DNA of 64,000 nucleotides from Liolophura sinensis (Eukaryota; Mollusca; Polyplacophora; Chitonida; Chitonidae): assembly GCF_032854445.1 (NCBI RefSeq), contig NC_088299.1, positions 6,609,001-6,673,000 of the forward strand, in the 5' to 3' direction. The position numbers were made by a program, and so were the translations under genes. The first letter of the stretch is position 1; every line of letters starts with the position of its first letter. The notes beneath the pieces were generated by a model, which searched no databases, was not told where the DNA came from, and was given only the letters and a program-made list of their open reading frames with translations. Below are positions 7,493-51,050 of this stretch, one piece after another.

Positions 7493-7574
7493 AAGTATAT
7501 CAGACTTTTTAGCAGTAACACATAAACCAGTAGGCTTGGAGCCACCCTCCTGTTTTTGCCTTCTCTTTAAAGCA

Positions 7575-9849: not shown

Positions 9850-10526
9850 TCAGCTGATAGCAAGCGATAACTGAGGAGCGTGACTGACGCTTTATCATTA
9901 CGCAAGACAATTTTACCTAACTGCACAAAAATATTGGTATTATTACAATACTAAAATCTCTGGTGATTCCCTTCATAAAAAAATGCATAGAATATTAACC
10001 GGTAAAAGTGTCACATCAACGTCAAGTCCCGAGATTTTTGGCCACTGTTACATTAACCTAGATTCTTGGCCTTTCGTTTATCGACAACATGGAGTGTACC
10101 AGTTGGAAAAGAAAACCGAGCACATTTGGATCTAAAATGGATGGATTACAGATTTTAAAATTCCATTCCAGCATGTGGAAAAAAGGCCAGGTTATAACAT
10201 AATCCTGGGCAAATTAGAAAGTTTAGTTATAAGAATGGTTTTAAATAGGTTGACTGCAACACACGGCAGATTGTGTGACATACAGTCTGAAATGATTAAG
10301 CATCTGGCTTGAAGGTGTTTAAAATTGTTCGAAGCGTTCACCGTGTATTTTTTTTTTTTTTTTTTTTGAAAATTGTTGAATTTATTCCCAGATTGTCATC
10401 AAATACACAAGATTTCACAATACCCGGCTATCACAAACTTTTGAAATCACAAGGCAGTCTTAATTAAAATAAAATATCACAGAAAAGATGACTGCTTTGT
10501 GAATAGAACAATTGCACATTAGCTGC

Positions 10527-13500
10527 TCATTTCAATAAATACACTAATTTATCATTCTGTAATGTACAAAAGACTTTGTTTATACACCAGATTTTCTCGA
10601 AAGATGGCCTGTCTAGTCGAAAAAAGTCAACATGAATACGGGTTTTAATTATTCCTTTGGCGGCCTTAACAATAGCAACAGAATCCCTGTTTTTTTTCTG
10701 AAATATTATGTCGTTGCGTGCACACCAAATACTAAACTGAAGAACACATATGACATACACCATCACAGCTCTAACTTCCTGGTTAAAGGTGGAATTGAAT
10801 ACCTTGTAAATTAATGTTTCCGAGTCCATATTTGGTAGGTAGTTCGCAAACAAAACAAATATCCGGTTAAAGTCATTAAACACATCCTGAACGATTTTAC
10901 ATTGTACAAACAGATGTTGCCGAGTTTCAGACAGGGAGCAAAAAACACACAAGTCATCGGTGGCTACATTTCTCCTAAGAAGTTTTTCCTTAACGGGCAA
11001 AATGTCATGAACCAACTTGTAACTGAAGTTGACCAAGTTGTGATCTAAGAATTGATGAAAAACAGTTTTCCATATTCTAACCCAGTCCAAATGCGGCATA
11101 GACACCATTGCTCTTGGACAATGTACTATTTTTGTTACAAAATATTCATAAATATACCTGCTTGAACACAATGTTACAGGTTGCTGTACACCTGTGGTAA
11201 ATTCTCTCCAGGCGCTCAAGGCCAGTCTATAAAAAGGTGGAATGTTTTCAGAATGTGGGATATTGGAACGACAGAATTCACGACAAACATGTCTTAGGGG
11301 TAAACCCAACCAATAGATGGCAAAGTATTTCCATTCCGCTGTTGTTCCATGAATTAATTTTAAAACATGCCGAGTAACAAGTGCTTTTATTTTACAATCT
11401 ATATTATGTACGTTTAGACCTCCATTCCCTATTTTATTATGTACGACAACTCTCTTCAAACTTTCGGGCTTGTTATCCCACAAAAATCTGAACACAGTTT
11501 GGGAACATTGATTGACACATTTAGGTGGCAACAGAGTACACTGTGCAGAAAACCATAAAACAGCTAAAGCAACTGTATTAATTAAGACAGACCTCCCCCG
11601 TAGGGTCAAATATCTTCCATTCCATGCTGATACATGTTTCTTTACCTTACTTAAAACACGCTCAGAATTGAGTTCTGTTTGATCTGGTCCAAAAAATACC
11701 CCACAAATCTTTGAATTTGTAGTGATGTTAAGCCCACCACTGTGCACGTTAGTTTCGTCCCAGCTACCAATGGGAAGAACCGTGCTTTTCAACAAGTTGA
11801 GTTTTGCTCCTGAGGCTTTTCCATAACTTTCTGCTAGTTTAATTACATGCGGAACAGAACTCTCTTCAGATAAAATTGCAGTCGTATCATCTGCAAATGC
11901 GGACACTCTTGTTTCCTTATTTGTGCCGGGTAACCGTACACCATTAATTTCGTCATTGTTTCTAATGGCGGCTATAAAGGGCTCTAAGGACAAAACATAC
12001 AGTAATGGTGACAAAGAACAACCCTGTCGGACACCTCGACTCAGTTTAAATTCTTCTGTTATGTGCCCGTTCACAATAACACTACTTGTAATGTCAGTAT
12101 ATAATAATTGCACCCACTTACAAAAGTCGGGTCCGAAGTTAAATTTCTCTAAACATTTGAACAAAAATGACCAGTCTACTCTGTCAAAGGCTTTCTCCTG
12201 GTCTAAGTTAAGAAAGCATCCTTTTAAATCTTTTTGTTCAACATAATCATATGTATTTCGTAATAAGTGAAGGTTGTCAAAAATACTTCGGCCTGGTATT
12301 CCACATGTCTGATTCTGAAGTACAATTGTATCGATCACATTTTTTAACCGATTGCACAAAGCTTTAGAAACAATCTTATAATCTACATTTAGTAAGCTAA
12401 TTGGCCTCCAGTTTTTTATGCTTTCGGCATTGTCGGGCTCCTTACATAATAGTGTGATTAACCCAGAACGCTGTGAATTACTTAATCTACCCAAGTTAAA
12501 ACAGTGATTAACTACATCCGTAAACACACCCGAAAACAGTGGCCAAAATTGTACATAAAACTCTGCTGGCAAACCGTCGCATCCCGGCGAACGGTTTTTA
12601 GACATATTTTTTACTGCAAAAAACAACTCCTGTTCAGTCAAAAGGCCTTCGCAGGCAGTTTTACAATCGTCATTTAACATCGGAAGCGATGACAAGAACT
12701 CATCTTGAATGGAGGAGTCAGTATCTTGTTCAGTATACAATTTCATATAATACGACCTTATACACTTAGCAATGCCTTCCTGAGATTCATGGGATATTGA
12801 AGAATCACTATGACAAGTAATACTTTTGATCATCTTCTTTCTGCCCCTACCAACTTCTCGTCTAATGAAATATTTGGTTGGTTTTTCTCCCTGATCAAAA
12901 TGAACAGCTTTAGCACGGATAACCGCTCCCGCATGATTCGACTTATAAAGGGCATTTAGAGTCTTTTTCACATTGTCAATACGCTCACAGTTAATGATTG
13001 GACTAGATTTCAACGCATTTAATTCTTGTTCAAGTACCAACAAATCACGTTTTTTGTTCATAGATTTTTCCTTACAGTAACTCCGAATCCTATCTTTACA
13101 TTCCCCTTTAAATGTCTCCCATCTGTCTATTAGATCTGCATGACCAGTTGTACAGACAGAGAAAATATCATGGAAGACGGATTTAATATCATCAACAAGC
13201 TCCGTGTCATTTAACACAGAAGTATTACACTTCCAGTAGAACGGCCCCCATGAAATGACATCTTCAAAAGAGATATCAAAAAACAAACACGAATGATCAG
13301 AAAAAGACACATGTACAGCATCACACTGGGTTACATACTTAAACACAGCGTTAGGGATATAAAATCTATCCAATCTACTGGCACACTGGAGCCTAGACCA
13401 CGTGTAACAATTCTTATCCGGATGCAGTTTCCTAAAAATATCACAAATACCAAAATCTCTTTTCAAATTATTAATTTCGTCCACTCCATCATTCCTTACA

Positions 13501-14048
13501 TTAGTGGCACAGCCAGCTCTATCTAATTCAATGCTCTCAACACAATTAAAATCCCCACCCATAATAACCAACTCACTGCCCTGCATCACATTATCTAGAT
13601 TAGAAATAAACTCTTTTCTTTCCTTTGGATTATTAGGGGCATATACACAAACAAGGTTTAAAGCAGTGTTGTTGAGCTCAACCCTAAGGCTTATGTAGCG
13701 ACCGTTAGGGCACCTCTGTATTTTCCGTATAAAGCAGTCTACCGTATACCTAATAATTATTCCCACCCCACAACTTCGATTTGACCCATACGCCCACCTT
13801 GCATCGCCTGGGATTTGCAAATATTTAGTGTCATTATAGTTTTCGAAGTGTGTTTCCTGTAAGAATAGTACATCAATTCCTTTATCGAAAACAAATTGCT
13901 TGACATGTTCTTGTTTAGACGGATCCCGTAAACCATTAATGTTTAAAGTCCCAAAACGAATATTATTTAAGCTCATTATACAAGTAAAGGTAGAGCGTAC
14001 ATACCCATTGTGGTCAAATAAGAGAGTCCTAATTACGCTACAAATCAT
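10527..14048 (-). CDS. LINE ORF2: AP endonuclease-reverse transcriptase
   Basis: 1173 aa with no internal stop. N-terminal APE-type endonuclease (about 28-260) nicks target DNA: N38 in LNINGL, E65 in LQETH, D166 and N168 in GGDFN, D251-H252 in FSDHS. The RT (about 480-760) has GIPGRSI, DQEKAFDRVDW and the FADD active site at 718-721. A CX2CX7HX4C motif lies at 1034-1050. The start ATG overlaps the ORF1 stop in an ATGA at 14045-14048, which suggests termination-reinitiation coupling. An alternative start is the internal Met before SLNNIRFG (residue 25). Length and motifs are complete for the family, so the protein may be active. Confidence 0.93.
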   Translation of the reverse strand: MICSVIRTLLFDHNGYVRSTFTCIMSLNNIRFGTLNINGLRDPSKQEHVKQFVFDKGIDVLFLQETHFENYNDTKYLQIPGDARWAYGSNRSCGVGIIIRYTVDCFIRKIQRCPNGRYISLRVELNNTALNLVCVYAPNNPKERKEFISNLDNVMQGSELVIMGGDFNCVESIELDRAGCATNVRNDGVDEINNLKRDFGICDIFRKLHPDKNCYTWSRLQCASRLDRFYIPNAVFKYVTQCDAVHVSFSDHSCLFFDISFEDVISWGPFYWKCNTSVLNDTELVDDIKSVFHDIFSVCTTGHADLIDRWETFKGECKDRIRSYCKEKSMNKKRDLLVLEQELNALKSSPIINCERIDNVKKTLNALYKSNHAGAVIRAKAVHFDQGEKPTKYFIRREVGRGRKKMIKSITCHSDSSISHESQEGIAKCIRSYYMKLYTEQDTDSSIQDEFLSSLPMLNDDCKTACEGLLTEQELFFAVKNMSKNRSPGCDGLPAEFYVQFWPLFSGVFTDVVNHCFNLGRLSNSQRSGLITLLCKEPDNAESIKNWRPISLLNVDYKIVSKALCNRLKNVIDTIVLQNQTCGIPGRSIFDNLHLLRNTYDYVEQKDLKGCFLNLDQEKAFDRVDWSFLFKCLEKFNFGPDFCKWVQLLYTDITSSVIVNGHITEEFKLSRGVRQGCSLSPLLYVLSLEPFIAAIRNNDEINGVRLPGTNKETRVSAFADDTTAILSEESSVPHVIKLAESYGKASGAKLNLLKSTVLPIGSWDETNVHSGGLNITTNSKICGVFFGPDQTELNSERVLSKVKKHVSAWNGRYLTLRGRSVLINTVALAVLWFSAQCTLLPPKCVNQCSQTVFRFLWDNKPESLKRVVVHNKIGNGGLNVHNIDCKIKALVTRHVLKLIHGTTAEWKYFAIYWLGLPLRHVCREFCRSNIPHSENIPPFYRLALSAWREFTTGVQQPVTLCSSRYIYEYFVTKIVHCPRAMVSMPHLDWVRIWKTVFHQFLDHNLVNFSYKLVHDILPVKEKLLRRNVATDDLCVFCSLSETRQHLFVQCKIVQDVFNDFNRIFVLFANYLPNMDSETLIYKVFNSTFNQEVRAVMVYVICVLQFSIWCARNDIIFQKKNRDSVAIVKAAKGIIKTRIHVDFFRLDRPSFEKIWCINKVFCTLQNDKLVYLLK

Positions 14049-15352
14049 TTGTCTCTTTTCATTCGCTGCCTCGCACGAGAAGCAAGCGATTTTCTTTTCC
14101 TGTATTCCAGAAGCATGGTGTCCCCCTCCTGAGATGGGGTCGGCGTCATACAGTCTGACGACTGATCGGCATCAACACCATCATAATCAGTAGGATGGGA
14201 ACTGGGCGGGATAGATGACGCTGCCTCTTCGGCTGTACTGCCATTGTCCAACTTAGCTCGCTTTTCCTCGACTGGGACTGGTGAACGCACGTCGGGAGCG
14301 TGCACGTCAGCCACGACCACATTCTTCACCCTTGGGACAGCTGATGACGTTTCATTATCACCAACATCCACTTCTTCGGTGTTCTTAGTATTCTCCCGGA
14401 CGTCCATCTCCTTATCAGACTCGCTGTCGTCGCTGACGTCTTCATCGGCGCTGTCGTCACCATTCCCGTCGATTTCGTCTTCGTTCTCCTCGCTGTCTTG
14501 AACCAGTTCCATAGCAGGTGCGTTGAATGGGTCTTCATCGTCGCTGACGTCAACATCAATGTCATCTTGTTTTACGGCGTCTTCCTTATTATACTGGCGC
14601 ATAGTCGGTAGGTTTCCCTTAACTCGCGCCGCGTACGACATTGCTCTCGCACAACAGTCACTGACCGTATGAAGCCCTGAGTCACACATTCGGCATGGAT
14701 TTGTACAGTCCTTCTCTGTATGAGGATTCTCATGGGGGGAGAAACCGTCGCAGTTAGAACACCACAGTGCTCTACACTCTGCCGCCTTGTGTGATTTTTG
14801 GCCACACTTCCGACATTCATAAGTTTGCCCGGGGTAGGTAAACATAACAATGTCACCACCGAAATTAATAAAATTTGGTACATAACGAACTTTGTGACAC
14901 CTAAATCTGTAAATCCGAATACCTGTCCGAACATGTGAGAGCTCCGGGTCTGAAAATCTGGGTTTCGTCACACCCAGGCATTCACCATAGGGTTTCAAAG
15001 CTGCCTCGATAGTGTCATCTGACATTTCATCCGGTGCCCAGTGGGCCGTCAGATTCAGGTAAACTGACGACGCGGGCATAATGGACCACGTCGTTCCATT
15101 TATAACAACATTGGATTTACTCACTAGGGCATTATGCCCAGCCACTGTAGACACGCGGAGATAGAAGTGTTTCTTTAAATAATTCTTCTGAAAACTTATT
15201 AGCTCTGTCTTGATATTTAACACACTTGACAGAAAAGGAATAAAGTCCCTCAGGACAGCCGTAGAAAATGCCGGGCTGCTTCGTGTAGAGATTGACACAG
15301 ACAAAGTTCTGCTTGGCCTGTTTACAGGCGAAAACGACACGGGCTTGGACAT
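14045..15352 (-). CDS. LINE ORF1: zinc-knuckle RNA-binding protein
   Basis: 435 aa from the first ATG (15350-15352); the frame stays open without ATG up to 15409. This is the nucleic-acid chaperone/RNP protein expected of a Tx1-type element. It has three zinc knuckles at about residues 180-233: CRKCGQKSHKAAEC, a longer middle one, and CRMCDSGLHTVSDC. A strongly acidic Asp/Glu/Ser segment follows, then a basic C-terminus (RKRKSLASRARQRMKRDK) that could serve nuclear import or RNA binding. The stop overlaps the ORF2 start. A second frame, 15132-15500, is also open over the N-terminal part but has no ATG. Confidence 0.88.
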   Translation of the reverse strand: MSKPVSFSPVNRPSRTLSVSISTRSSPAFSTAVLRDFIPFLSSVLNIKTELISFQKNYLKKHFYLRVSTVAGHNALVSKSNVVINGTTWSIMPASSVYLNLTAHWAPDEMSDDTIEAALKPYGECLGVTKPRFSDPELSHVRTGIRIYRFRCHKVRYVPNFINFGGDIVMFTYPGQTYECRKCGQKSHKAAECRALWCSNCDGFSPHENPHTEKDCTNPCRMCDSGLHTVSDCCARAMSYAARVKGNLPTMRQYNKEDAVKQDDIDVDVSDDEDPFNAPAMELVQDSEENEDEIDGNGDDSADEDVSDDSESDKEMDVRENTKNTEEVDVGDNETSSAVPRVKNVVVADVHAPDVRSPVPVEEKRAKLDNGSTAEEAASSIPPSSHPTDYDGVDADQSSDCMTPTPSQEGDTMLLEYRKRKSLASRARQRMKRDK

Positions 15353-15583
15353 ACCTGATCCAACGGGGCACACGCCCTTCACCAAACAGTAACCACTGGC
15401 CAAACTCAAGCTCTGTGGGCTCCCAGATCACCAAAAAATCAGTCTCAAAAACAAGCGTTGTTGTTGCACAAATGTGTAAACAGCAGAGAATAACCGACAC
15501 GTCCGTTCACTTCGGCGTCTAGCACACTCTCCTGTTCACCGTGTAATACGCACAAAATTAGTTTTATACTTCCCCAAAATAGT

Positions 15584-15667
15584 TGTCAGAAGTGGGATTC
15601 GAACCTACGACTGGAGAACCAGACTGCGACCTGAACTCAGCGCCTCAGACCGCTCGGCCATCCTGAC
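15584..15667 (-). pseudogene. tRNA-Leu(CAG), variant copy
   Basis: 84 nt with anticodon CAG. The T stem (cctacgactgg on the plus strand) and the anticodon stem (gaactcagcg) carry mismatches. The A box is intact. Probably impaired. Confidence 0.78.
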
Positions 15668-18575: not shown

Positions 18576-19237
18576 TCAGCTGATAGCAAGCGATAATTGA
18601 GGAGCGTGACTGACGCTTTATCATTAAGCAATACAATTTTACCAAATTGCACAAAAATATTGGTATTATTATAATACTAAAATCTCTGATGATTCCGTTC
18701 AAAAAAAAGTGCATAGAATATTAACCGGTAAAAGTGTCTCATTAACGTCAAGTCCCGAGATTTTTGGACACCGTTACATTAACCTAGATTCTTGACCTTT
18801 CGTTTATCGGCAACATGGCGTGTACCAGTTGGAAAAGAAAACCGAGCACATTTGGATCTAAAATGGATGGATTACAGTTTTTAAAATTCCGTTCCAGCAT
18901 GTGGAAAAAAGGCCAGGTTATAACATAATCCTGGGCAACTCAGAAACTTTAGTTATAACAATGGTTTTGAATAGGTTGACTGCCAAGCACGACAGGTGAT
19001 TTGATATACAGTCTGAAATGATTTTTTTTTTTTCCAAGATTGAATTTACTCCCAAGAAACGTTTACGAAAACATACATACACAGGGACATATCAGTAACG
19101 GAATAATATTGAGATTCACAGCGCAGCCCACTTAAAAACAAAACAGATCACAGACAAGTTGGGACTGCTGTGTGACTCTTGTAATCATCAAATCACTTTG
19201 TTAGCGGAGTAGATAAACTAGCTTGTCATTGTCTATC

Positions 19238-22200
19238 CTACAGAAGATTTTTGTTGTGACACCAATACTTTTTAAACAGTGACCGATTTAACCGATAGAA
19301 ATCAACATGAACTCTTGTCTTAATCATACCTTTAGCCACGGCAACGATCGTACTTGCATCTCTTTGCTCATTTTGAAACACCACTTGATTTCTTGCACAC
19401 CAAGTGCAAAATTGTAACACTGTAATTATACATAACACAACAGCCCTCACTTCCGGACTAAGAGGAAAATTAAGCGATTTGTAAATTAGTGTGTCCGTGT
19501 CAAGACTCGGCAAAACGCGACCATAAAGAACAAACACCCGGCTGAATTCCCGGAACACCTGAGAGACAATATGACATTGAACAAACAAATGGTCCTGTGT
19601 TTCCGAACCAGAACAAAATACACAGGAGTCGTCAGTGGCGATATTACGCCTCAGTAGTCTTTCTTTGACGTGCAAAATATCATGAACAAGCTTAAAACAG
19701 AAATTGATCAAGTTATGATCTAAAAACTTGTGAAACACCGTTTTCCAAACAACTTCCCATCTCAACTGCGGAAATGTTAACATCACCCGTGGTGCCTGTA
19801 AGGCTTTCGTGACAAGCTGATCATAAATAACTTTACTAGGGTACATCACAGAAGGTAACGTTTGACCACTATAGAATTCCTTAAAAGCATTTATCGCAAA
19901 CTGGTAGAAGGGTGTGTTACGTTCTGAGTGTGGGACACTGTGCCTGGCAAATTCAGGACAAACACTTCTCAAAGATAAACCTAACCAGTAAATCGCAAAA
20001 TATTTCCAGTCGGCCTCAGTACCATAAACCAATTTGAATACATGTCGTACGGCTAAAGCTTTCGCTTTGCACTCAACATTATGAACATTTAAACCTCCAT
20101 TCTTAAATTTATTGTGCACAACAACCCGCTTTAAACTCTCAGGCTTATTATTCCACAAAAATTTAAATACTATCTGCGTACTTTGAGTGACACATTTAGC
20201 AGGTAACAAAGTACATTGTGCTGTGAACCATAAAACCGCTAGGGCGACAGTGTTAATTAGTACAGCCCTCCCCCTAAGAGTTAAATATCTTCCACACCAA
20301 GAAGTTATATTTTTCTTAACTTTATTTAAGACACGAGTACAGTTGAGTTCCGCCTGGTCTTTTCCAAAAAAAATTCCACAAATTTTGGAATTCTGAACAG
20401 TATTCAAACCTAAATCAGGCACTAACGAACTATCCCAATTTCCAATAGGTAGGACAGTGGTCTTGGACAGATTCAGTTTTGCCCCAGATGCCCTGCCGTA
20501 ATTTTCTGTCAAAGTAACCACTTCTTCCACGGAACTTTCATCTGAGAGAATTGCCGTAGTGTCATCCGCAAAGGCAGAAACCTTAGCCTGCTTAGTTGTT
20601 CCCGGCATGGCAACCCCATTAATCACACTGGACTTCCTACGCTCCGATATAAACGGCTCTAACGATAAAACGTACAACAGTGGAGATAGGGAACACCCCT
20701 GGCGGACTCCTCTATTTAAACTAAATTGTTTACTTATGTGTCCATTTACAATCACACTGCTGGATATATTTGTGTACAGTAATTTAACCCATGCACAAAA
20801 TTCGGGACCAAAATTAAACATCTCTAAACATTTGAAGAAAAAGGACCAATCAACCCTGTCAAAAACCTTCTCCTGATCTAAATTTAAAAAGCATGCCTTC
20901 AAATCTTTCAGTTCCACGTAATCGTAGACATTACGTAAAAGATGTAAATTGTCGAATATACTACGACCTGGTATTCCACAAGTTTGGTTCTGATTAACCA
21001 CGTTGCCAATAACAGATTTTAAACGATTACATAAAGCTTTTGACACAATTTTGTAATCTACGTTCAGTAAACTAATAGGCCTCCAATTCCTTATGTCCGT
21101 TGCATTATTGGGGTCCTTACATAGCAATGTGATAAGACCACTCCGCTGGGACGGACTTAAACTGCCGGAGCGAAAACAACAATTGACAACTTCAGTAAAT
21201 ACATTGCCAATCAGAGGCCAGAACGTTACATAAAACTCGGCCGGTAAGCCATCACAACCAGGCGAATGGTATTTACACATACAATTTACAGCAAACAACA
21301 GCTTTTGTTCCGTCAATGCGCCTTCACAAAGAGCTTTACAATTATCATTTAACTTGGGTAATTCTGATAGAAACGCGTCTTGACACACAAAATCAGTATC
21401 CTGCTTGCTGTACAATTGTTTGTAATATGACCTGATACATTTATCAATTTCATGCTGGGATTTATGGGACTGAGACTCATTCCCATGACACCTAATTTCC
21501 TTTATCATTTTCTTTTTCCCCCTCCCCACTTCCCTTCTAATAAAATACTTCGTAGACTTTTCCCCCTTATCAAAGTGAACAGCCTTAGCCCTAATAACCG
21601 ATCCCGCATGTCTGTCTCTATTTAAACAATTAATAGTCTTCTTTACATTATCAATCTTATCACTATTTACAACAGGGTTTGTCTTACATTCAATTCATCT
21701 TGTAGATCCAACAACTGGCTCTTTTTCCTCAATGAAACTTGGGAACAATAATTACGTATTGCATCTTTACAATCCTTTTTGAAAGCCTCCCACCTGTCCA
21801 CTAAGGTATCATCACAAATGTCACAATCAGAAAAAATTCTTACAAAGACATCATTTATTTGTACAGCAAGTTCATCGTCATTCAAAACAGAAGTGTTACA
21901 TTTCCAATAAAACGGACCCCAAGTAATTACATCCGTAAAATTTAAATCAACAATAGGACAAGAATGATCAGAAAAGGAGACATGTTTAACATCACAAAAG
22001 TTACATAACTCTGAACAGCATTAGGAAGGTAGAATCTATCAAGCCGACTAGCGCATTGGCATCTTGACCAAGTGTAGCACCGTTTGTCCAGATGAAACTT
22101 CCTAAAAATATCTCACAACTCAAAATCATATTTAATACTATTAATCTCATCAATACCAACATTTCTCAGACCCAATTCTATCCACTATAATATTTTCAAA

Positions 22201-22665
22201 GCAGTTAAAATCCCCACCAAGAATGACTAATTCACTCCCACGCATTACACTGTCTAAGTTAGAAATGAATTCTTTCCTATCCTGTGGATTATTAGGAACA
22301 TATATACATATCAGATTAAGAGCCGTGTCATTAATTGTCACTTTAACACTTATGTAACACCCGTTAGGATATCTAACGACATTACGTATTACACAGTCAA
22401 CAGTGTATCTAATCACAATTCCTACCCCACAACTTTTACTTGACCCCTATGCACACCTAGCATCCCCTGGAATTTTAAAATTCCTAGCGTCCTTATAATC
22501 TTGAAAATGTGTTTCTTGTAAGAACAAAATATCAATATTGTTATCAAAAACAAATTGTTGTACCTTTGTAACAGCACGCAGGCCATTAACATTTAAAGTG
22601 CCAAAACGTATGTTAGATACGAGAGACAATAAACAGATAAGAAAAATATGAAGGTACATATCCAT
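19238..22665 (-). pseudogene. TxC ORF2: endonuclease-RT, broken
   Basis: The RT half is open from about 21687 to 19238, with CGIPGRSIFDN, LDQEKVFDRVDW, RGVRQGCSLSPLLYVL, FADD and the C-terminal CVFCSGSETQDHLFVQC zinc motif. The endonuclease half is split: 22665-22447 (NVNGLR, LQETH) ends at a nonsense codon, 22416-22150 holds GGDFN, and 21885-21667 lies just before a one-base frameshift near 21687. The element cannot supply its own ORF2 protein. Confidence 0.88.
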
Positions 22666-22761
22666 TGTTCATGTGGGAGCATATCCATGTCCGTGTTCTA
22701 GTAAAATCTATTCATTGTCTTTACGCGCTCTCGAACGAGAGGCGAAAGATTACCTGCCCAG

Positions 22762-23445
22762 TTACTCCAATAACATTTTATCAGTACCTTGAGAGGGAGT
22801 GGGTGTCATGATTTCAGATATGTCCGAGTCCCCCTGCATTACGCAATCCGACGGTAGAGTGCTCCATAATTCCGATGACGTCCCCTCCGGTTCATTGTCC
22901 AGTCTTGCTCTCTTTCGTTCAACGGGCTCTGGAGATCGCACGCAGTGGACATCCGCCTCGACTTTTATCGCACCAGACAAATCTCTGGTCACACCATCGC
23001 GGTCTTTGGTGACATTAGGTACAACTCGCGTACCTCTGTCACACTCCATGTCACCCACTGAATCATCCTCCGCTCTGGTAGTGTCAATCTCAGTTTCGTC
23101 ATTTGCGCCAATTTCTTCGTTATCATCATCCTCACCATCACCACTATCACCATCATCATCACTACCTACGTCAACATCATCATCATAATCATCATCATCG
23201 TCTCCTTCGGTGTCAGTTGTGTTGTTGTCCTTGTCCAGTTTAACAATTTGCATGGCAGGAGGCGGAAACTCTAAGTCATCGTCGTTGCTACCGCCCCCAA
23301 CAACGTCAACGTCAATTGTGACGTCCTGATCGGGGCCCTGCACACTCACTGTATTCTGCACAGAATTCTTCACTTTGGACGCATACGTTAAAGCCCGAGC
23401 ACAGCAATTACCACTTGTATGCTCCATCGAGCCACATATACGACA
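22762..23445 (-). pseudogene. TxC ORF1, C-terminal fragment
   Basis: Starts within the element's truncated 5' end at a third zinc knuckle (CRICGSMEHTSGNC). It continues with a long Asp/Glu-rich stretch, partly encoded by GAT-type triplets, and a RKRAR basic patch. It ends at a nonsense codon after KMLLE, where TxA continues into its basic tail. There is no start codon of its own. Confidence 0.8.
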
Positions 23446-23518
23446 AAGGTATTAAAATAGTAAAAGCGCATCACCGTGTGAGGTGCACAAGAATATTTTT
23501 GTAATTCCCAAAAATAGT

Positions 23519-23602: not shown

Positions 23603-23992
23603 TCACATGTTAACAAGTTACAATTCAGGAGCGTGACTGACGTTTCTAAGTTTAGCAATTTTACCTAACTGGAAATAAAAATTTGTTTGTATTTTTACAA
23701 TACTGAAATCTCAGGTGTTTACCGCACAAAAAACTTCATAAAATAACAACCGCTAATAGCATCTCATTGGTGTCGAGTCCAGAGTTTTTTTGACCACCGT
23801 TAGATCAGCCTATTTTCTTGGCCTATCGTTTATCAGCTACATGGCATGTACCAACCCGAAGAGAAAACTGAGCACATTGTGGTCTAAAATGGATGGATTT
23901 AAATGTCATTTATGAATGTTGAAAAGACGCCAGGTTATAACATAATTCCGGGCAGCTGAACAACTTTAGTTATAAGAATGGTTTTAAATATA

Positions 23993-25521
23993 CTATCCAA
24001 AAAAAGAAACGCATAACCCGGTTTTTTGCGGAGGTGATGCAGTCTTTTCAATTATGCATAACTAAATAAGAAATGCTATTCTGCAAAAAATTTTTGACAC
24101 AGATTAAGGAAGGGTCCATATCTAGACAACAAGGCCATCAACTTGAGGTAAGACACTCACAATGAGTCTCCCACTTGAGTGGAATGTCAGTATCTGTTGT
24201 GACCACCACGGGCACGAATAACAGTTCTGACACGCCTTGTCATGGACTGGATGAGACGCTGGATAGAGGCCTGGGGAATGTTCTGCCACTCCTCCTGCAA
24301 ACATGCAACTTGCTCTTGAAGCGTTTGGGGTTGAGGTTGACGTTGGCGTAGACGTCGATCAAGTTCATCCCACAGATGCTCAATTGGGTTAAGATCCGGG
24401 GAACGGGACGGCCAGGGTAGCACATTTACATTGTTTTCAGCGAGGAAGTCCCTTGTGACACGTGCCGTGTGCGGTCTGGCGTTGTCCTGCTGGAACAACT
24501 CCCGCTGAACGTCAATGACAGGTAAGAGGTGTGGCTGCAGGATGGTGTCTCGGTAGCGTACGCCCGTAAGATTTCCCTGAACGTGGACAAGATTTGTACG
24601 ACCAGTATACGATATTACTGCCCACATCATCACACTCCCTCCACCAAATCTGTCCACTTGGCGTACGCAGTTAGGGGCATAACGTTCGTGAGCACGTCTG
24701 TAAATCCGGTTTCTACCATCACGTCTCTGCAATAGGAATCTGGACTCATCACTGAACCAAATGCGTCGCCAGTTGCGTAGATTCCATGCAGTCACGTTGT
24801 TACACCATCGGAGGCGATTGGCGCGATGGTGAGGACGCAGCATGATCCCAACATAGGGCCTCCTGGCTCTCAGTCCATGTTCCCTCAGCCTGTTCCGCAC
24901 TGTCTGACCTGATATCCTCATCAGTCCCGGTATGCTGGCTGCTGTGCTTTCAGCTGTAGCACAACGGTCACGCAAATGGAGGACCCTTATGTAGCGATCT
25001 TGGGTTGCTGTAGTGACACGTGGTCGACCTGAACGCCGGCGGTCATTTGTTGTCCCAGTATTGTTGTAGTGGGCAGCAAGCCGTGAAATCGTGCTCTGGC
25101 TGACGTGTAGACGCCTAGAAATGGACGATTGGGACTCTCCAGCTTGAAGTCTTCCAATGGCAATATTTCTTGTGACAGTGTCAAGACGTGGCATGTTGAA
25201 TCAGCTTGAAAACACCACTTGAAAGACGCCGATTTCCAGCCCGAAGTTGCGGTTTTATAGTCACACACTGCATGCTTTCCATGCGTAAGTTCGGCGTGTA
25301 AGACTGCACGTGATGCAGTGTGGTGCTGTATTTTTTACTTCTTCCAAAAACGGCCTCCAAACTCAACATTTTCAACCAAGAAATGTTTTGAGGAATAAAA
25401 TGTGTGCTAACTGTGATTATTAACAACATTAAAACACATTTTGTTCATGAAATGAAGACAAAATGTATTTATTTCATTTTAAAATAAAGCAAAACACCTA
25501 TGCGTTTCTTTTTTTGGATAG
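23993..25521 (-). mobile_element. Tc1-type DNA transposon, apparently complete
   Basis: 1529 bp with perfect 23-bp terminal inverted repeats (23993-24015 and 25499-25521, outer end CTATCC), flanked by TA on both sides (23991-23992, 25522-25523), as expected for Tc1/mariner. It sits in the aatatatag stretch of a C monomer, about 143 bp from the next tRNA. A single uninterrupted transposase lies inside. Confidence 0.95.
24187..25194 (-). CDS. Tc1 transposase (DD34E)
   Basis: 335 aa from an ATG. It binds the element's inverted repeats and cuts and rejoins DNA. An N-terminal paired-like domain has a first helix-turn-helix (about 12-42), a GRPR hinge (about 56-59), and a second helix-turn-helix (about 75-110). 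The catalytic triad is D149 (WFSDESRF), D237 (FQQDNARPH) and E272 (DLNPIEHLW), with 34 residues between the last two. A glycine-rich GGGSVMMW segment lies between. The length and all catalytic residues are normal, so it may be active. Confidence 0.95.
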   Translation of the reverse strand: MPRLDTVTRNIAIGRLQAGESQSSISRRLHVSQSTISRLAAHYNNTGTTNDRRRSGRPRVTTATQDRYIRVLHLRDRCATAESTAASIPGLMRISGQTVRNRLREHGLRARRPYVGIMLRPHHRANRLRWCNNVTAWNLRNWRRIWFSDESRFLLQRRDGRNRIYRRAHERYAPNCVRQVDRFGGGSVMMWAVISYTGRTNLVHVQGNLTGVRYRDTILQPHLLPVIDVQRELFQQDNARPHTARVTRDFLAENNVNVLPWPSRSPDLNPIEHLWDELDRRLRQRQPQPQTLQEQVACLQEEWQNIPQASIQRLIQSMTRRVRTVIRARGGHNRY

Positions 25522-25663
25522 TATATATAGACTGCAACAAACGGCAGATTGTGTAACATACAATCTGAAATGATTAAGCATCTGGCTTAAAGGTGTTTAA
25601 AATAGTTCGAAGCTTTCAAAGTGTAATAAGGACAAAAATAGTTTTGTACTTCCCAAAAATAGT

Positions 25664-33843: not shown

Positions 33844-33915
33844 TATACAAGTAAGTAAAGGTAGAGCGTACATACCCATTGTGGTCAAATAAGAGAGTCC
33901 TAATTACACTACAAC

Positions 33916-35232
33916 TCATTTGTCTCTTTTCATTCGCTGCCTCGCACGAGAAGCAAGCGATTTTCTTTTCCTGTATTCCAGAAGCATGGTGTCCCCCTCC
34001 TGAGATGGAGTCGGCGTCATACAGTCTGACGACTGATCGGCATCAACACCATCATAATCAGTAGGATGGGAACTGGGCGGGATAGATGACGCTGCCTCTT
34101 CGGCTGTAGGCCTTCTGCCATTGTCCAACTTAGCTCGCTTTTCCTCGACTGGGACTGGTGAACGCACGTCGGGAGCGTGCACGTCAGCCACGACCACATT
34201 CTTCACCCTCGGGATAGCTGATGACGTTTCATTATCACCAACATCCACTTCTTCGGTGTTCTTAGTATTCTCCCGGATGTCCATCTCCTTATCAGACTCG
34301 CTGTCGTCGCTGACGTCTTCATCGGCGCTGTCGTCACCATTCCCGTCGATTTCGTCTTCGTTCTCCTCGCTGTCTTGAACCAGTTCCATAGCAGGTGCGT
34401 TGAATGGGTCTTCATCGTCGCTGACGTCAACATCAATGTCATCTTGTTTTACGGCGTCTTCCTTATTATAATGGCGCATAGTCGGTAGGTTTCCCTTAAC
34501 TCGCGCCGCGTACGACATTGCTCTCGCACAACAGTCACTGACCGTATGAAGCCCTGAGTCACACATTCGGCATGGATTTGTACAGTCCTTCTCAGTATGA
34601 GGATTCTCATGGGGGGGGGAGAAACCGCCGCAGTTAGAACACCACAGTGCCCTACACTCTGCCGCCTTGTGTGATTTTTGGCCACACTTCCGACATTCAT
34701 AGGTATGCCCGGGGTAGGTAAACATAACAATGTCACCACCGAAATTAATAAAATTTGGTACATAACGAACTTTGTGACACCTAAATCTGTAAATTCGAAT
34801 ACCTGTACGAACATGTGAGAGCTCCGGGTCTGAAAATCTGGGTTTCGTCACACCCAGGCATTCACCATAGGGTTGCAAAGCTGCCTCGATAGTGTCATCT
34901 GACATTTCATCCGGTGCCCAGTGGGCCGTCAGATTCAGGTAAACTGACGACGCGGGCATAATGGACAACGTCGTTCCATTTGTAACAACATTGGATTTAC
35001 TCACTAGGGCATTATGCCCAGCCACTGTAGACACGCGGAGATAGATGTGTTTGTTTAAATAATTCTTCTGAAAACTTATTAGCTCTGTCTTGATATTTAA
35101 CACACTTGAAAGAAAGGGAATAAAGTCCCTCTGGACAGCCGTAGAAAATGCCGGGCTGCTTCGTGTAGAGATTGACACGGACAAAGTTCTGCTTGGCCTG
35201 TTTACAGGCGAAAACGACACGGGCTTGGACAT
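33916..35232 (-). CDS. LINE ORF1: zinc-knuckle RNA-binding protein (TxB)
   Basis: 438 aa from the first ATG (35230-35232). Same architecture as the TxA ORF1: three zinc knuckles starting at CRKCGQKSHKAAEC, an acidic middle, and a basic tail ending KRDK. It differs from TxA by scattered substitutions and a three-codon net length difference (an extra Pro before the second knuckle's His and two residues in the C-terminal third). The frame is open and the protein could be made. Confidence 0.87.
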   Translation of the reverse strand: MSKPVSFSPVNRPSRTLSVSISTRSSPAFSTAVQRDFIPFLSSVLNIKTELISFQKNYLNKHIYLRVSTVAGHNALVSKSNVVTNGTTLSIMPASSVYLNLTAHWAPDEMSDDTIEAALQPYGECLGVTKPRFSDPELSHVRTGIRIYRFRCHKVRYVPNFINFGGDIVMFTYPGHTYECRKCGQKSHKAAECRALWCSNCGGFSPPHENPHTEKDCTNPCRMCDSGLHTVSDCCARAMSYAARVKGNLPTMRHYNKEDAVKQDDIDVDVSDDEDPFNAPAMELVQDSEENEDEIDGNGDDSADEDVSDDSESDKEMDIRENTKNTEEVDVGDNETSSAIPRVKNVVVADVHAPDVRSPVPVEEKRAKLDNGRRPTAEEAASSIPPSSHPTDYDGVDADQSSDCMTPTPSQEGDTMLLEYRKRKSLASRARQRMKRDK

Positions 35233-35577
35233 ACCTAATCCAACGGGGCACACGCCCTTCACCAAACAGTAACCACTGGCCAAACTCAAGCTCTGTGGGC
35301 TCCCAGTTCACCAAAAAATCAGTCTCAAAAACAAGCGTTGTTGTTGCACAAATGTGTAAACAGCAGAGAATAACCGACACGTCTGTTCACATCGGCGTCT
35401 AGCACACTCCCTCCCCGTTATAACAATGGTTTTCAATAGGTTGACTGGAACGCACGGCAGGTGATGTGACATACAGTCTGAGATTTTTAAGCATCTGGGT
35501 TAAAAGTGTTTGAAATAGTTCGAAGCGTTCACCGTGTGACGCGCACAAAATATATTTTTGTACTTCCCCAAAATAGT

Positions 35578-44169: not shown

Positions 44170-45430
44170 TTTTTTTGGAATAAGAAATTTATTATCCATA
44201 AGACATATTTACTGGAATAACAATAAGGTGTACGAGACACGATCTATACATCAATATATCACAGGGACCTAGATTGCTTATTTCTGATGTAAGTGTCAGT
44301 TACCTCAGTAAGTAAATAAGTTTACCGTTTAGAACTTTACAAATTACTTTATTTTTACACCATGTATCTTTGAAACACCTTGAGCCGAGACGAACAAAAT
44401 CAACATGAACCCGTGTTCTTATAATACCCTTTGCAGCAGAGACAATATAACTGGCATCTCTTTGTTTCTCATTAAAGATTATGTCATTTCTGGCGCACCA
44501 TAATGAAAATTGAAGAACACTCAGTATATACAAACAAACTGATTCGTCTGCTTTGTTTACATTTTTGAACACTTTATGGATAAGGTGCTTTTCGTTAAAG
44601 GACGGTACAAAATTGGCATATTTGATAAACACTCCAAGAAATTCATTAATTACATGTCTAGTCATGTGACATTCCACAAATAAATGTACCTGTGTTTCTG
44701 AGCCTTGACAGAACACACACGCGTCGCCAGTGGCTATATTTCGGCGCCGAAGGTAGGATGTTATGAACTAGTTTAAAACAAAAATCAAGTTGTGATCTAG
44801 GAATTTGCTAAATACAGTCTTCCATATAACTGGCCATTCCAACTGCGACCGCTTCACAACAACACTTTTTTAAGAATCTGGATATAAACAGCCTTGCCAG
44901 AACAAATGATAGGCAAAATCTGCCCTGTATAAAATTCCATCCAAGCATCGAGAGCGTAGTTGTAAAACCTAAGCACATACTCTGAAAGAGGAATATTAGA
45001 TCTGTCAAAATCAGGTCTAATATTATAGGGTGATAATCCGATCCAGTAAATGGCAAAGTGTGTCCAATCAGCGGTGGACCCGTGTAACAATTTCAAACTG
45101 TGCCTTATACCAAACATTTCAACCTTGCAATAAATATTTTGAACATTAAGACTGCAAACCGCAAACGAATTGCATACAAGAGTTCTTTTTGAACACTCTG
45201 GTTTGTTATCCTATAAAAATCTATGAACCGTCTGATTACATTGTGTAACGCATTTAGAGGTCAAATAAACGCATTGAGCAGTAAAACCACGAGACGGCTA
45301 AGGCCACTGAATTGATCAACACAGATTTCCCCCCGAGAGTTGGAAACATTCCTGTCCAGGAAGATACATTTCTTTTAACCTTGGTGAGAATACGATCAGA
45401 GTTCAAATCTTCTGCATCACCCTAACCGTT
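44170..45430 (-). mobile_element. 5'-truncated Tx1-type LINE (TxE)
   Basis: Only the 3' quarter of a Tx1-lineage LINE: a short T run at 44170-44176, a 3' UTR, and the C-terminal part of ORF2. The flank at the 3' end is gaagcgttcact, almost the same monomer site as TxA. The 5' end fades near 45430, where unrelated sequence begins. Same strand as the tRNA genes. Confidence 0.82.
44300..45420 (-). pseudogene. TxE ORF2 C-terminal fragment
   Basis: 44716-44300 gives FCQGSETQVHLFVEC (CCHC remnant) through WCARNDIIFNEKQRDAS to LIYLLR, clearly homologous to the TxA C-terminus. 45117-44854 covers SLKLLHGSTADWTHFAIYWIGLS. Further upstream frames to about 45420 show SDRILTKVKRNVSSW. Frameshifts separate the pieces. 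Confidence 0.82.
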
Positions 45431-45549
45431 GTAAAGAAAGAATGGACTTTATCACCAATTTAGACCCATTGCTGTGTGGTAGTGAAGTGCTTGTATTGGG
45501 GGGGGGGACTCTTTCTGCAGATAAAGTATTAAGACAGAGGCCTTGATTT

Positions 45550-47250
45550 AATTAACCTGCCACGCATCTTTAATGAACCTGATGATCGTAGTACTGTGCC
45601 TAATTATTTTAATTTTCAAGAGCCCCCTTGCATATCCTATGAGTATACCTAAAGCCTATCGCTTCCAAAATTTTCAGTTGTGCCTAGGCCATCAAGGAGT
45701 CCGATTTGGGGACGTATACTTCTGGCGGCTATAACTGTGATTGTGAATCCTCAGTTTTTACCTACGACAAAAGTAAACATGCCCTGATTGGTAACCTTAA
45801 TATTATTAAGAATCATGATCTAAGGAACCTCGTTGTGAGATATCCTAAGTATAGAGAAAAAAGAAATGTCAACATTAGATCTAACATAAAAAATATCATC
45901 TCGGGAGAAAGTGGATTCTTCGGTACTTAACGATTGACTTGAGATTGTCAAAAAGAAGAGTTTGGCTATACACCGTATAGATGCTCTAGCTAAAGTTAAC
46001 CAGGTTCTTAGGGATCCCACTGTGCAAGAAACACTCACTGACCTTCATAGTAAAATCTGTCATCAGTGGCTCCTAATAATGTCATCTTTATTTGCAAGAA
46101 TTATTATTATCAAATTCTTGTTTGATAAGAATTTGGAGGAACTATTTAATAAACACAAAACCTTTCTTAACCGTCATACAGAAATACCACAACTTTACTG
46201 GATTCCTAAAATGCACAAGTCCCCATACAAAGCTCGATTTATTGCGGGTTCATAAAGTTGTACCACCAAACTCTTATCAATCCTACTTACAAGAGCGTTA
46301 CAAGAAGTAAAGTCATTTTGGAATAAGTATTGTTGTGCAATAACAAAAAATTCAGGTGTCAACTGCATGTGGATTCATAACAACTCCAAACGTCTTACAG
46401 AAGAACTCGATGCTCATATGCACATACCGTACAAAGACGTATCCATATGGGATTTCTCTACTCTATACTACAATTCCTCACAAAGATCTTATTGAAAGAA
46501 TATCGTCTTTAATTGTCTCGGTAATTACTAAAACAGGTCATGGTTACATTAACGTCAGAAGCAATAAAGCTTTCTTTAGCTCTACTATTTATAAAGGTTA
46601 CCACTCATTGGATGTTACATTATTTATTGAATCACTTGAATTTCTTATTAATAACATCTGTGTGAAATTCGGGGATACAATTTACCAACAGAGCATAGGT
46701 ATTCCAATGTGTACCAATTGTGCGCCTCTTTGGCAGACCTATACCTGTTTTCATACGAGTACGACTATATGCAGGAATTACTTAAAAGGGATCCTTTTCA
46801 TTTACCAAGCGGTTTACTGATGATTTACTGGCGTTAAATAACCCCCATAATGCTGAAGCGTTGAAGGAAATCTATCCGCCTTCATTGGATTTAAAGGAGA
46901 CAACAGATAGTTCTGATGGTACATCTTATTTGGATCTATATCTGTAAAAAGACGAACAAGGTCTCGTTTCAGGCCGCCTTTACGACAAAGGGTATAATTT
47001 CAATTTTGATATTATAAATTATCCTTATTTGGATAGCAATATACCAAAGGGTCCTGCACATGGCGTATACATATCTAGCCTTGTAGCATTTGTCACATCT
47101 TGCGTAAATTGTGATGACTTTAATTTGCGTCACAAGTTGTTAGTTCCAGAAAAAAGTTTGTCAAGAATACTCCACCAAACGCCTTCATACAAAGTTTCTC
47201 AAATTTTACAATGAGTATAACACTCTCGTTGGCAAGTATGGACAGAGCGT
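45550..47250 (+). pseudogene. Decayed reverse transcriptase, probably Penelope-like
   Basis: Plus-strand fragments in shifting frames. Recognisable segments: a region with GNLNIIKNHDLRNL and KYREKRNVNIRSN (45780-45880), YWIPKMHKSPYKARFIAGS (46195-46253, like the PKxHK block of Penelope RTs), FSTLYTTIPHKDLIERI (46450-46500), IGIPMCTNCAPLW (46695-46740), SYLDLYL near 46920 and AHGVYISSLV near 47060. The catalytic DD pair has decayed in the IYWR region. No GIY-YIG domain is visible. Clade assignment is tentative. Sequence on to about 48 kb may be its 3' part. Confidence 0.6.
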
Positions 47251-48150
47251 TCAGAATCTCTGGCAATCTGCATTATGATCAACCACACAGACGGCGGTGT
47301 TATCCTTATGTACATATCTGTCGCGTACATGGTATTTTACAACATAAATGGCGCTGGTTTCCGAGTGTAACTTGTAGACAGCTTTTATACACATCAGCGT
47401 GTAACATCATAGATGGCGCCTGTTGTAGTGTTAGGTCTTTACACATTAACGGGAAAGCCGTAATCGTTCTTTACTTTTTAATCACAATCTGTTCGGTTAA
47501 GATCTGTAACGCTTGTCATTTTTGAATTCTATGTAATACCGCTTAACCTGGCGCGAGGGGCCGTAAAGGCAGCCATGCTCATTACATCTGCATGATGCCT
47601 TTATGAACAGTTGCAATCAAAGCGCGATTGAGATACCTTGTTTAATTGTTATTTGACCAGGAACTCATTCATGGACTACGAATTTGAACTTTGATATGGA
47701 TTTCATGCCTGGAGTATCCACTGTTTGTCCGGCATCACTGAAAACTGATTAGCGCTTCTCTCTTGTGTGTTATCGGCTTTATTTCCTATTTGTATAATTT
47801 CTTACATACCTTTGTCTTTGGGAGCTAGTGTTAAACGTTGTTTTGGAAATGGATCTTGCGATTATCGACTTGGAAGGCCCTTTACGGACTACGAATGACA
47901 TACGAATGTCGGACATGACGCTTATATATGTACTCTTATATACCTAGTACCAATTCATGTTCCGTTATATTAGCGCTCTTTGATCTCTGAGATTACTTCC
48001 AACACAGTTCAACTTTTCCACAGTTTCATCGTCCTTCACATATGCTGGAAAATGCAGAAATGAGATCAGCACAGTGCTCTGCGAAACACCCATGCAAGCA
48101 TGCTTTATACCGTCAGTCTCAAGTCCGTCACTCAGTGGGTCACGTGAAGC
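47250..48150. other. Unassigned stretch beside the Penelope-like remnant
   Basis: No convincing gene. A 104-codon open frame (47211-47525, plus) begins inside the preceding element and shows no recognised domain. The stretch may be the 3' part of that element. Confidence 0.4.
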
Positions 48151-48999
48151 TTTGTCCGACAGTGTTATGGAGTCCGGAGCTTTTTGCCCACCGTTAGATC
48201 ATCTTAGATTCTTGGCCTTTCTTTTATCGGCATTATGGCGGTACCAACCGAAAGGGAAAACTGAGCAAATTTTGATCTGAAATGGATGAACTACAGTTTT
48301 TCATATGCCATTCTTGCATGTTGAAAACAGGTCAGGTGCAGCTGAAAAACTTTAGTGATAAGAAAGGTTTTAAATAAACTGACTGCAACACACGGCAGGT
48401 GGTGTGAGAAACTGATTAAGGATCTGGCTTAAATGTGTTTAAAATAGTTTTAATCGTTCACTGTGTGACACGCACAAAACTATTTTTCTACTTCCCAAAA
48501 AATGTTTTCAGATGTATGATTCGAATCCACGCACGGAGAACCAGAGTACGACCTGAACGCAGCGCTTTTCACCACTCGGCCATCATGACTTACTTGAAAA
48601 CTCCGTGAAAAAATTTGTTTGTATTTTTAAAACGCTGAAGACTCAGGTGTTTCCTCTCAAAAAATGCATCGAATAATCGCCGTTGAAAGTGCCTCATCAA
48701 CGTCGAGTCCGGTGCTTTTTTACCACCGTCATATCAGCCTTGATTCTTGACCTTTCTTTCAATGGCAACATAGCGTGTAGCAACCAGAAGTTAAAATTGA
48801 TCAAATTGTGGTCTGAAATGGATAGATTAGAGTTTTCCAAATGTCAGTCCTGCATGTTGAAACGAGATCAGGTTATAACATACTCCGGGGGAACTGAAAA
48901 ACTTTAGTTATTAGAAAGATTTTAAATAAACGGACTACAGCACACGACAGGTGGTGTGACAAACACTTTGAATTGATTAAGGGTCTGGGTTAAAGGTGC
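48150..48999 (-). repeat. tRNA-Leu array, last diverged monomers
   Basis: Two strongly diverged monomers (marks such as caccgttagatcat, ggcctttcttttatcgg, catcaacgtcgagtccgg) around a broken tRNA locus. They are the rightmost array sequence in the window. Confidence 0.85.
48505..48589 (-). pseudogene. tRNA-Leu, degenerate, outermost copy
   Basis: The acceptor (ttttcagatgtatg), T arm, variable arm (gcacggagaaccagagtacg) and D arm (cgcttttcaccactcgg) are all mutated. The anticodon loop still reads CAG. Confidence 0.8.
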
Positions 49000-51050
49000 T
49001 TTTTTTTCTTTTCTTTTTTTTTTTTTTGAAATTGTAGAATTTATTACTAGATTCTCAGAAAGAACAAGGTTGCATGAACTGACATTTTTCGTGCCATTTC
49101 CACAGTTGTCTGTGCTAAAAAGATTTATCGCAGATTTGGTAAGACTGCTATGGAAGACGGAGAACAATATCTTAGTTTCATTTGATGCACATTTGCAATA
49201 ATATAGTGATCACTTTATATTTAAGGTGAGGAATGCTATTTTAACAAATATACAAGCTCTCCCAATATCTAACAGAATAAATTGCGTTTGCATCACCTTC
49301 TCGCAAATTCTTTTTTTCTGTAAAAATCTACAAAAAAAACTCTTGTCTTTATTGCACCCATTGTAACAACCATAGTACTTGGACATTTTTTTGTTTATTT
49401 TGAAATACTATCGTGCACGCCATACGCTGAATTGCAATACATTGATGACATATAATATTACTTCCTGATCAAAACTGATCTCCCAATGTCCTAAATACTA
49501 AGGTGTTTTCGTCAAACACTGGTGAAAACCAAGCATACCGCATGAGCTGATGGTTGATATGATTGAAAACACTCTGAGTTACACAACAGTCCAGAAAAAG
49601 ATGCTTTTGGGATTCAGACAACCTCCAATGCACACATAAATCGCTATTTTCCACGTTGCGCTTCAGCAATCTAACCTTCACAGTCAAGATATCATGGTCA
49701 AATTTAAAGCTAAAATTTAAATTACAAGGCTGGTAACTCACAGATGGGTTTCACTAACTATGCATAAATACACTTTGTCGAAAACCATTGCACATATAAC
49801 GAGTTTTTTCTTATAAACTTCTTTCCACGTGTTTAAAGCAAACTGATAAATCGGGGGAATAGTTTCGGCGTGAGGAATGTTCGGCCTACAAAATTGAGGA
49901 CACAATTGTCTTAGAGATATTCCAAGCCTGTTGATAGCAAAATATCTCCAGTCGGCCTCTGTTCCATGTATAAATCTTAGAATGTGGCGGATAAGTAAGA
50001 CCTTAGCTTGGCACTCAATGTTTTGAATCTCTAAACCACCGTTTTCAAGAAAGTTATACAGTACAGACCTTTTTATACCTTTAGGTTTATTGTCCCAAAG
50101 GGAACCAGAAATCAGGCTAGTGCCTTGCGTAAAACATTTTGTGAGCAATAAGATACACTGAGCAGTAAACCATAGCACAGACAGAGCAACCGTGTTTATA
50201 AGTACAGATTTCCCCCTTAGAGTTAAGTATCTGCCGTTCCAGGAAGTAACATTTTTCTTCATTTTATTTAAAATCCTATTACTGTTCAGTTCGGAGTGAT
50301 CCTGGCCGAAATGGATACCACATATTTTAGCGTTTTCACTAACTTTAAACCGAATATCAGGAACATCTTCCTCTTTCCATTTACCAATTGAGTGCTTTTT
50401 GCCACATTTAGTTTTGCATCCGATACGCTTCCACAATTTTCAGATGCACGGAGCTCTTATCGAACTGAAGCAGAATTGGTTACAATAGCTGTGAAATCAT
50501 CTACATAAGCTTCGATCTTGGCCTGTTAACTTGTACCTAGTATTGGAACACCTTGAATGATATCATTTGCTTTAACAGCAGAAAAAAAAGGTTCCAAACA
50601 CAATATGTACAATGATGGCGACAGTTCACATCCTTGTCGAACACCTCTACATAATGTAAACTTCTTGATAATGTGGCCGTTAACAGTCACTGAGCTTCGT
50701 ATCTCAGCATGCAGTTACTGCACCCACTTACAAAAATCTGGGCTAAAACTGAAATGTTTCAAATGACATTTGAAAAAAATGACCAGTCAACACGATCGAA
50801 GGCCTTTTCTCGGTCCAGATTCATGAAACATGCACCTAAACATGTATCCAAAACTTCCCATAAAATTCTGCAGGAAAACCGTATTTATTCATTTTTTTAC
50901 GGCATGGAATAATTCTTCTTCACCATCCATTTTAACCCGCTTTTGTTCTACTTGTCTCCTTGGGAAGCGTTACACGTCCACATTCTCCGCGTTATCACCA
51001 CGTCTTTCTCTTACTAGAGGTTTCAGTTGACTTGACACCTGAGTACAAAC
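49000..51050 (-). mobile_element. 5'-truncated, decayed Tx1-type LINE (TxF)
   Basis: A T-rich tail (49000-49027) follows monomer sequence ttaaaggtg. Then a 3' UTR starting gaaattgtagaatttatt resembles that of TxA (gaaaattgttgaatttatt). ORF2 remnants extend to about 51050. Same strand as the tRNA genes. It forms the right end of the array. Confidence 0.82.
49469..51030 (-). pseudogene. TxF ORF2 fragment: RT and C-terminus
   Basis: 50436-49738 covers the post-RT region (KICGIHFGQDHSELNSNRI, WNGRYLTLRGKSVLINTVAL, DWRYFAINRLGISLR). 49741-49469 covers KFDHDILTVKVRLLKRNV and a damaged CCHC (CVHWRLSESQKHLFLDC). At higher coordinates, broken frames show NLDREKAFDRVDWSF and an EAYVDDF active-site variant. 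An internal deletion joins the AEFY and NLDREKAF blocks near 50850. Confidence 0.82.

Follow-up and report, generated by a model that had tools for sequence, protein, structure and literature searches.

Introduction

The window studied here (the whole stretch of 64,000 nucleotides that was analysed, contig NC_088299.1 of the mollusc Liolophura sinensis, positions 6,609,001 to 6,673,000 of the forward strand) holds a tandem array of tRNA-Leu genes that is repeatedly interrupted by long interspersed nuclear elements (LINEs), among them the full-length element TxA. It raises a simple question: what brings these LINEs to a short interval past a tRNA gene, the local DNA sequence or the transcription unit itself? 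From the copies of TxA in the genome we propose the second answer. Insertion is apparently position-specific and guided by RNA polymerase III (Pol III), the LINEs lying on the strand of the gene and shortly past its end, be it a gene for a tRNA, for 5S rRNA or for 7SL RNA.

Most examined copies of TxA lie directly past Pol III genes

The genome (609 Mb) was searched with the 3' and 5' ends of TxA, the best-preserved LINE, and the best 40 of 97 candidates for the 3' end and the best 40 of 51 for the 5' end were considered. These best-scoring matches come from 45 different copies: a 3' end was found for 40, and five were recognized by their 5' end only (one of them at C11:22237986, C designating contigs). 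Since 35 of these 3' ends have a matching 5' end, most copies have escaped 5' truncation, although a few carry internal deletions or interruptions. The upstream flank could be examined in 42 of the 45 copies, i.e. all save C11:22241742, C9:19626431 and C9:13902709. Relaxed settings of ARAGORN gave many doubtful tRNAs, which were excluded from the counts.

A previous reading of the window, made from the sequence only, had suggested setting all copies against the nearest Pol III gene, by distance and orientation. Considered this way, 37 of the 42 examined copies have a same-strand Pol III gene directly upstream, and for 34 of them this gene ends 34–232 bp before the first base of the LINE. At the loci L009, L019 and L066 the 5' junction stands farther from the gene (465–1302 bp), while the 3' flank aligns with host sequence 168, 80 and about 70 bp past it, respectively, and the target duplications are very long (297, 396 and about 1230 bp); the first nick thus fits the usual position, a long stretch having been duplicated. 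Two of the 42 copies follow a damaged or edge-cut tRNA: L001 a truncated tRNA-Ile, and L071 the 3' half of a tRNA, which was recognized by eye at the border of the read and is separated from the LINE by a repeat. Three were left unjudged, namely L011 (3' junction as in L005, and a foreign 5' flank whose nearest gene is 381 bp off on the other strand), the copy at C7:8820 (which shares the L019 site and was read on its 5' flank alone) and L025. When duplicates are collapsed, e.g. four Asn copies into one and two His copies into one, about 35 distinct sites remain.

The position of the first-strand nick was determined, within the few bases of ambiguity left by the poly(A) tail, at 17 sites with both flanks, including TxA and its window relative TxB; the flanks of L005, L006, L010, TxA and TxB were paired by hand and those of L019 by a wider alignment. 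The nick falls 26–219 bp past the gene with a median of 80 bp: 11 of the 17 are within 40–150 bp, three are nearer and three farther. At all 17 sites the nearest upstream gene is on the strand of the LINE. If nicks were placed uniformly in the intervals between genes, finding all 17 within 219 bp would have a probability of about 6e-8; on average they use only the initial 18% of the stretch that leads to the next Pol III gene, and none of the 17 was found in the 160 bp that precede a same-strand gene.

Beyond a short A-run, we found no sequence common to the insertion sites. At least two A's precede the aligned 3' flank at 11 of 17 readable sites (a set slightly different from the 17 with both flanks), for a chance expectation of about 10% per site (p ~1e-7); an expectation of 4% was set aside because it ignored the A's merged into the tail. 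These A-runs suggest pairing between the poly(A) tail and T's of the nicked strand. A T-run of at least four separates gene and LINE at 31 of the 31 loci tested. Besides, none of 21 downstream spacers contains an external B box with at most one mismatch, and two do so with at most two mismatches, versus 2.6 in shuffled sequences.

A wide range of target genes

The targeted tRNA genes represent 14 amino-acid types: Leu, Ile, Gly, Glu, Ala, His, Asp, Asn, Pro, Met, Thr, Arg, Phe and Ser. The range extends to 5S rRNA (L040 and L052) and to 7SL RNA (L072), and Rfam scans of the LINE loci at the gathering threshold detected the tRNA, 5S and 7SL families only. The intron-bearing tRNA targeted at L020 was found by Rfam and missed by ARAGORN; reciprocally the tRNA-Pro of L070, a single tRNA in a 321-bp view, was called by ARAGORN and not by Rfam, and the nearest gene of L009 is an ARAGORN call only. 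The 7SL gene of L072 lies at the edge of a same-strand tandem 7SL array, and the LINE stands up to 135 bp past this gene of about 300 nt. The family Metazoa_SRP (RF00017) has 26 matches, the best reaching 258 bits, as fits an animal host.

Two copies, L040 and that at C6:20497518 (L037; read by eye), are inside the body of a tRNA-Leu gene, yet 119 and up to 163 bp, respectively, past another Pol III gene. Tandem arrays of Pol III genes seen in the genome include one of 7SL at C6:48.644-48.675 Mb, with a period of about 890 bp, and one of linked U6 and 5S genes on C238, with a period of about 1,402 bp.

Other LINEs of the same genome

As controls we used LINEs with another type of endonuclease (PF14529), taking the best 150 of 1175 candidates and removing 30 rows that belong to one tandem array. 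Among the 120 left, none is within 20 kb of a TxA copy, one is within 50 kb and six are within 100 kb. The related family TxC co-clusters with TxA: the regions reaching 50 kb from a TxA copy make up 0.47% of the genome and contain 12 of the 14 TxC copies (9 of 11 when the home contig is excluded).

The comparison was widened to 147 listed places with a match to the reverse transcriptase (RT) of TxA, the identity bins being drawn after seeing the data. With an RT identity of at least 58%, 77 of 94 places have a Pol III gene detected here within 50 kb, against 2 of 53 with an identity of 43–57%. From these RT sequences, the targeting habit seems to belong to one branch of the relatives.

RT relatives of 44–45% identity, whose open frames are long (up to 1,308 aa), recur every 6 kb or so on one strand at C1:91.028-91.047, C2:9.948-9.966, C5:0.298-0.310 and C6:8.404-8.416 Mb, as if a sister lineage inserted into, or was amplified in, another array. 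LINEs of the PF14529 type form a tandem array on contig C16, with a period near 16 kb, and are found in nests (C11:21.75-22.32 Mb) and beside a tandem array of U1 genes (C10:30.105-30.211 Mb); the U1 array itself occupies C10:30.034-30.140 Mb, with a period of about 1,976 bp. There may be a LINE that targets the U1 array.

The tRNA-Leu array of the window

The array, detected by ARAGORN and by BLAST of its monomer, spans positions 8 to 40634 of the window and contains 26 tRNA-Leu genes, mostly with a CAG anticodon and two with CAA, in a monomer of about 620 bp. All 26 genes are on the minus strand, within the first 40 kb. The LINEs described below are on the same strand, and their poly(A) tails run straight into resumed monomer sequence.

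TxA (10348–15533) is a full-length LINE with a poly(A) tail, flanked by a 12-bp target-site duplication read by eye (5' copy 15534–15545, 3' copy 10336–10347). TxB (30215–35416), also full-length and of the TxA family, has a duplication of 24 bp, likewise read by eye, whose 5' copy is at 35417–35440. TxC (19022–23470) is 5'-truncated, and since the surviving part of its first open reading frame (ORF1) is only 45% identical to that of TxA we consider it as a separate family. TxE (44170–48169, with an approximate 5' limit) and TxF (49000–51050, the 5' limit being that of the initial reading) are copies of older families.

The 3' flanks of TxA, TxB, TxC, TxE and TxF, TxD being left out, were realigned to six intact monomers, and the LINE or A letters heading three of the aligned stretches were added back. 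The sequence-only reading had placed the junctions of TxA, TxE, TxF, TxC and TxB at 39, about 45, about 70, about 92 and 138 bp from the tRNA 3' end, with the LINE on the strand of the tRNA in each case; the realignment gives 39, about 43–45, 68–69, about 91 and about 137 bp (from the homologous tRNA end for TxE and TxF), and the strand holds for the five. Five positions within one monomer are thus used by four related LINE families.

Other mobile elements occur in the window: a transposon of the Tc1/mariner type inside the array (23990–25530), with an open transposase frame of 337 aa, and remnants of a long terminal repeat (LTR) retrotransposon (5149–7615) with RT, RNase H and an integrase zinc-binding domain.

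Proteins and classification of the LINEs

The second frame of TxA (ORF2, 10527–14171, minus strand) contains an APE-type endonuclease, a reverse transcriptase and a zf-RVT domain according to Pfam, and its best matches in PDB are L1 ORF2 chains (E 4e-87). By the sequence of this endonuclease and its L1-type reverse transcriptase, these LINEs are placed in the L1 group. ORF1 (14045–15427, minus strand) encodes 460 aa with an acidic tail and, recognized by eye alone, CCHC-type zinc knuckle-like motifs; Pfam gave no match for it. A gag-like ORF1 with CCHC zinc knuckles is a feature of the Tx1 clade. The assignment to this clade is thus putative, based on the L1-like ORF2 domains and these knuckles.

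In at least four of the 20 copies examined first, both ORFs are open over the compared length, and the aligned parts of these 20 copies are 98–99.7% identical to TxA; both observations indicate that the TxA family is young.

How the site might be chosen

We consider it very probable that the Pol III transcription unit, rather than any fixed DNA sequence, determines where these LINEs insert, and that insertion proceeds by target-primed reverse transcription. Most likely the LINE ribonucleoprotein would be held in place by a tether to some protein of the Pol III machinery common to tRNA, 5S and 7SL genes, be it TFIIIB, TFIIIC or the polymerase. The L1-like endonuclease would then nick the template strand of the gene 26–219 bp past it, beyond the T-run terminator, and preferentially where this strand offers a few T's to anneal to the poly(A) tail. 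A nick on the template strand beyond the terminator would fix the orientation of the LINE and spare the gene. The 7SL copy adds a point, although it is a single one: its place past so long a gene suggests that the distance is measured from where the gene ends, and not from its start. More tentatively, the LINE might read the 3' end of the Pol III unit, for example through a terminating or read-through polymerase, and nick the transcribed strand in its wake. In that case the tether would be the polymerase or a termination factor rather than the upstream TFIIIB, and much of the animal Pol III transcriptome (tRNA, 5S and 7SL) would serve the lineage as a safe harbour.

Would a fixed sequence do as well? 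A sequence-specific LINE, whose endonuclease recognizes one site of the tRNA-Leu spacer as in the zebrafish element Dewa, could account for the several copies found in tRNA-Leu arrays, but the sites beside 14 tRNA types, 5S and 7SL genes share a short A-run only, and four related families use five positions of one monomer; such a LINE appears hardly credible here, and the fixed site as sole mechanism is ruled out by the unrelated target sequences. Insertion is thus positional, as the sequence-only reading had advanced, and its further proposal of Pol III guidance is supported by the same-strand sites past this whole range of genes, guidance itself being what we infer from them. The preference could also come from the state of the DNA without any specific tether: Pol III genes are nucleosome-poor, and A-runs at the nick together with T-run terminators are indeed present, so that open chromatin and a T-rich template strand past the terminators might favour insertion. 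However, the upstream flanks of the genes should be open too, yet the 160 bp preceding a same-strand gene contain none of the 17 nicks, and no site has an opposite-strand gene as its nearest upstream neighbour; moreover the large U1 array, transcribed by RNA polymerase II, holds none of the 45 TxA copies, and LINEs of the other type avoid the clusters. We regard this explanation as improbable, if less so than that of a fixed site.

It could be argued, finally, that insertion is random and that selection left only the copies in multicopy RNA arrays, or that the turnover of the arrays amplified them there. Some copies are array duplicates (four examined copies at the Asn site, two each at the His, Leu-AAG and Met sites), but the 35 or so sites that remain after collapsing are distinct, many with their own target duplication, LINEs of the other type are common elsewhere in the genome, and neither the preferred distance nor the strand would be expected from survival. 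This leaves it very little likelihood.

Several observations nevertheless weigh against Pol III guidance. Nearly all targets are tandem arrays, dispersed single tRNAs being hardly represented, and Pol III genes are not hit evenly, since neither the dense 5S array at C4:7.98-8.08 Mb nor the U6-5S array on C238 holds any of the 45 TxA copies. Several of the upstream tRNAs are degraded. The Asn-array gene, counted for four copies, is a borderline match (29.3 bits for a cut-off of 29), and is identical to an intact Asn gene nearby at 67 of 74 positions; the Ala gene at L006 is identical to its neighbour at 64 of 73. L001, L018 and L062, in an Ile/Ser array, sit between convergent genes and were assigned to Ile by strand, which cannot decide the gene used in a convergent pair, and L009, L019 and L066 fit by their 3' junction alone. 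As for the relatives, TxE (5 of 9 copies, including one cross-match with a TxA copy) and TxF (4 of 6) co-cluster only partially with TxA. No Pol III gene was seen at 17 of the 94 close RT matches, most of these places being unread; they tend to cluster (C12:1.83-1.98, C9:24.5-24.7 and C6:11.24-11.28 Mb), and 301 bp read at C12:1.83 Mb contained neither a LINE 5' end nor a Pol III gene. The predicted structure of ORF1, with a mean pLDDT (predicted local distance difference test) of 33, is of no use.

Comparison with known systems

The closest system in behaviour is TRE3 of Dictyostelium (PMC5006619), a non-LTR retrotransposon of the L1 clade for which an external B box has been invoked. Both have two ORFs, an APE endonuclease, a reverse transcriptase, a zinc-finger region and a poly(A) tail. 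TRE3 inserts about 40–150 bp downstream of tRNA genes, in their orientation and whatever their identity; the nicks mapped here overlap this range, the 17 sites and the 37 of 42 copies directly past a gene have its orientation, and the 14 amino-acid types indicate the same indifference. On the other hand the host is here an animal whose genome has 609 Mb, 5S and 7SL genes are also targets and no external B box was found in the 21 spacers (at most one mismatch); the likeness considered here is one of behaviour.

In host and target the closest is Dewa, a zebrafish LINE of the tRNA-Leu spacer (Kojima and Fujiwara 2004, as summarized in part of PMC3706591). Both are LINEs in animal tRNA-Leu spacers; what sets them apart, from the description of Dewa, is that here most targets are other tRNAs, 5S or 7SL, with no fixed site. 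Other elements share one or the other feature. In TRE5-A of Dictyostelium the insertion distance is set by Pol III genes, 5S included, according to a section of PMC5391098, and the TRE5 ORF1 contacts TFIIIB according to one of PMC5911963; the yeast elements Ty1 and Ty3 also take their distance from Pol III genes, but all these insertions are upstream, and Ty1 and Ty3 are LTR elements. Finally the planarian LIN15_SM and LIN25_SM, NeSL-1_TV and the Dada DNA transposons target tRNA genes, as reported in parts of PMC4640811 and PMC3706591, but with one tRNA type per family as a sequence target, and the enzymes of the NeSL-related elements (restriction-type endonuclease group) and of Dada (DDE transposase) are unlike those of the present LINEs. 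In the open-access literature, as far as its consulted sections go (e.g. PMC8869645, PMC10294476, PMC3747384, PMC5633606 and PMC11203168; subscription papers are outside this scope), we found no animal LINE with an insertion positioned by Pol III genes.

Significance

Our data suggest that a LINE follows the Pol III machinery of its host to harmless landing sites. Insertion positioned by Pol III is best known from retrotransposons of yeast and amoeba, which have compact genomes. An animal LINE of this kind, in a 609-Mb genome and with tRNA, 5S and 7SL genes alike as targets, would demonstrate that animals too have evolved the strategy. It would serve to test how a protein landmark can guide the machinery of a LINE, and as a natural model for the insertion of DNA near tRNA genes without damage. 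As relatives with and without the habit are present in the same genome, the switch from one behaviour to the other would be traceable.

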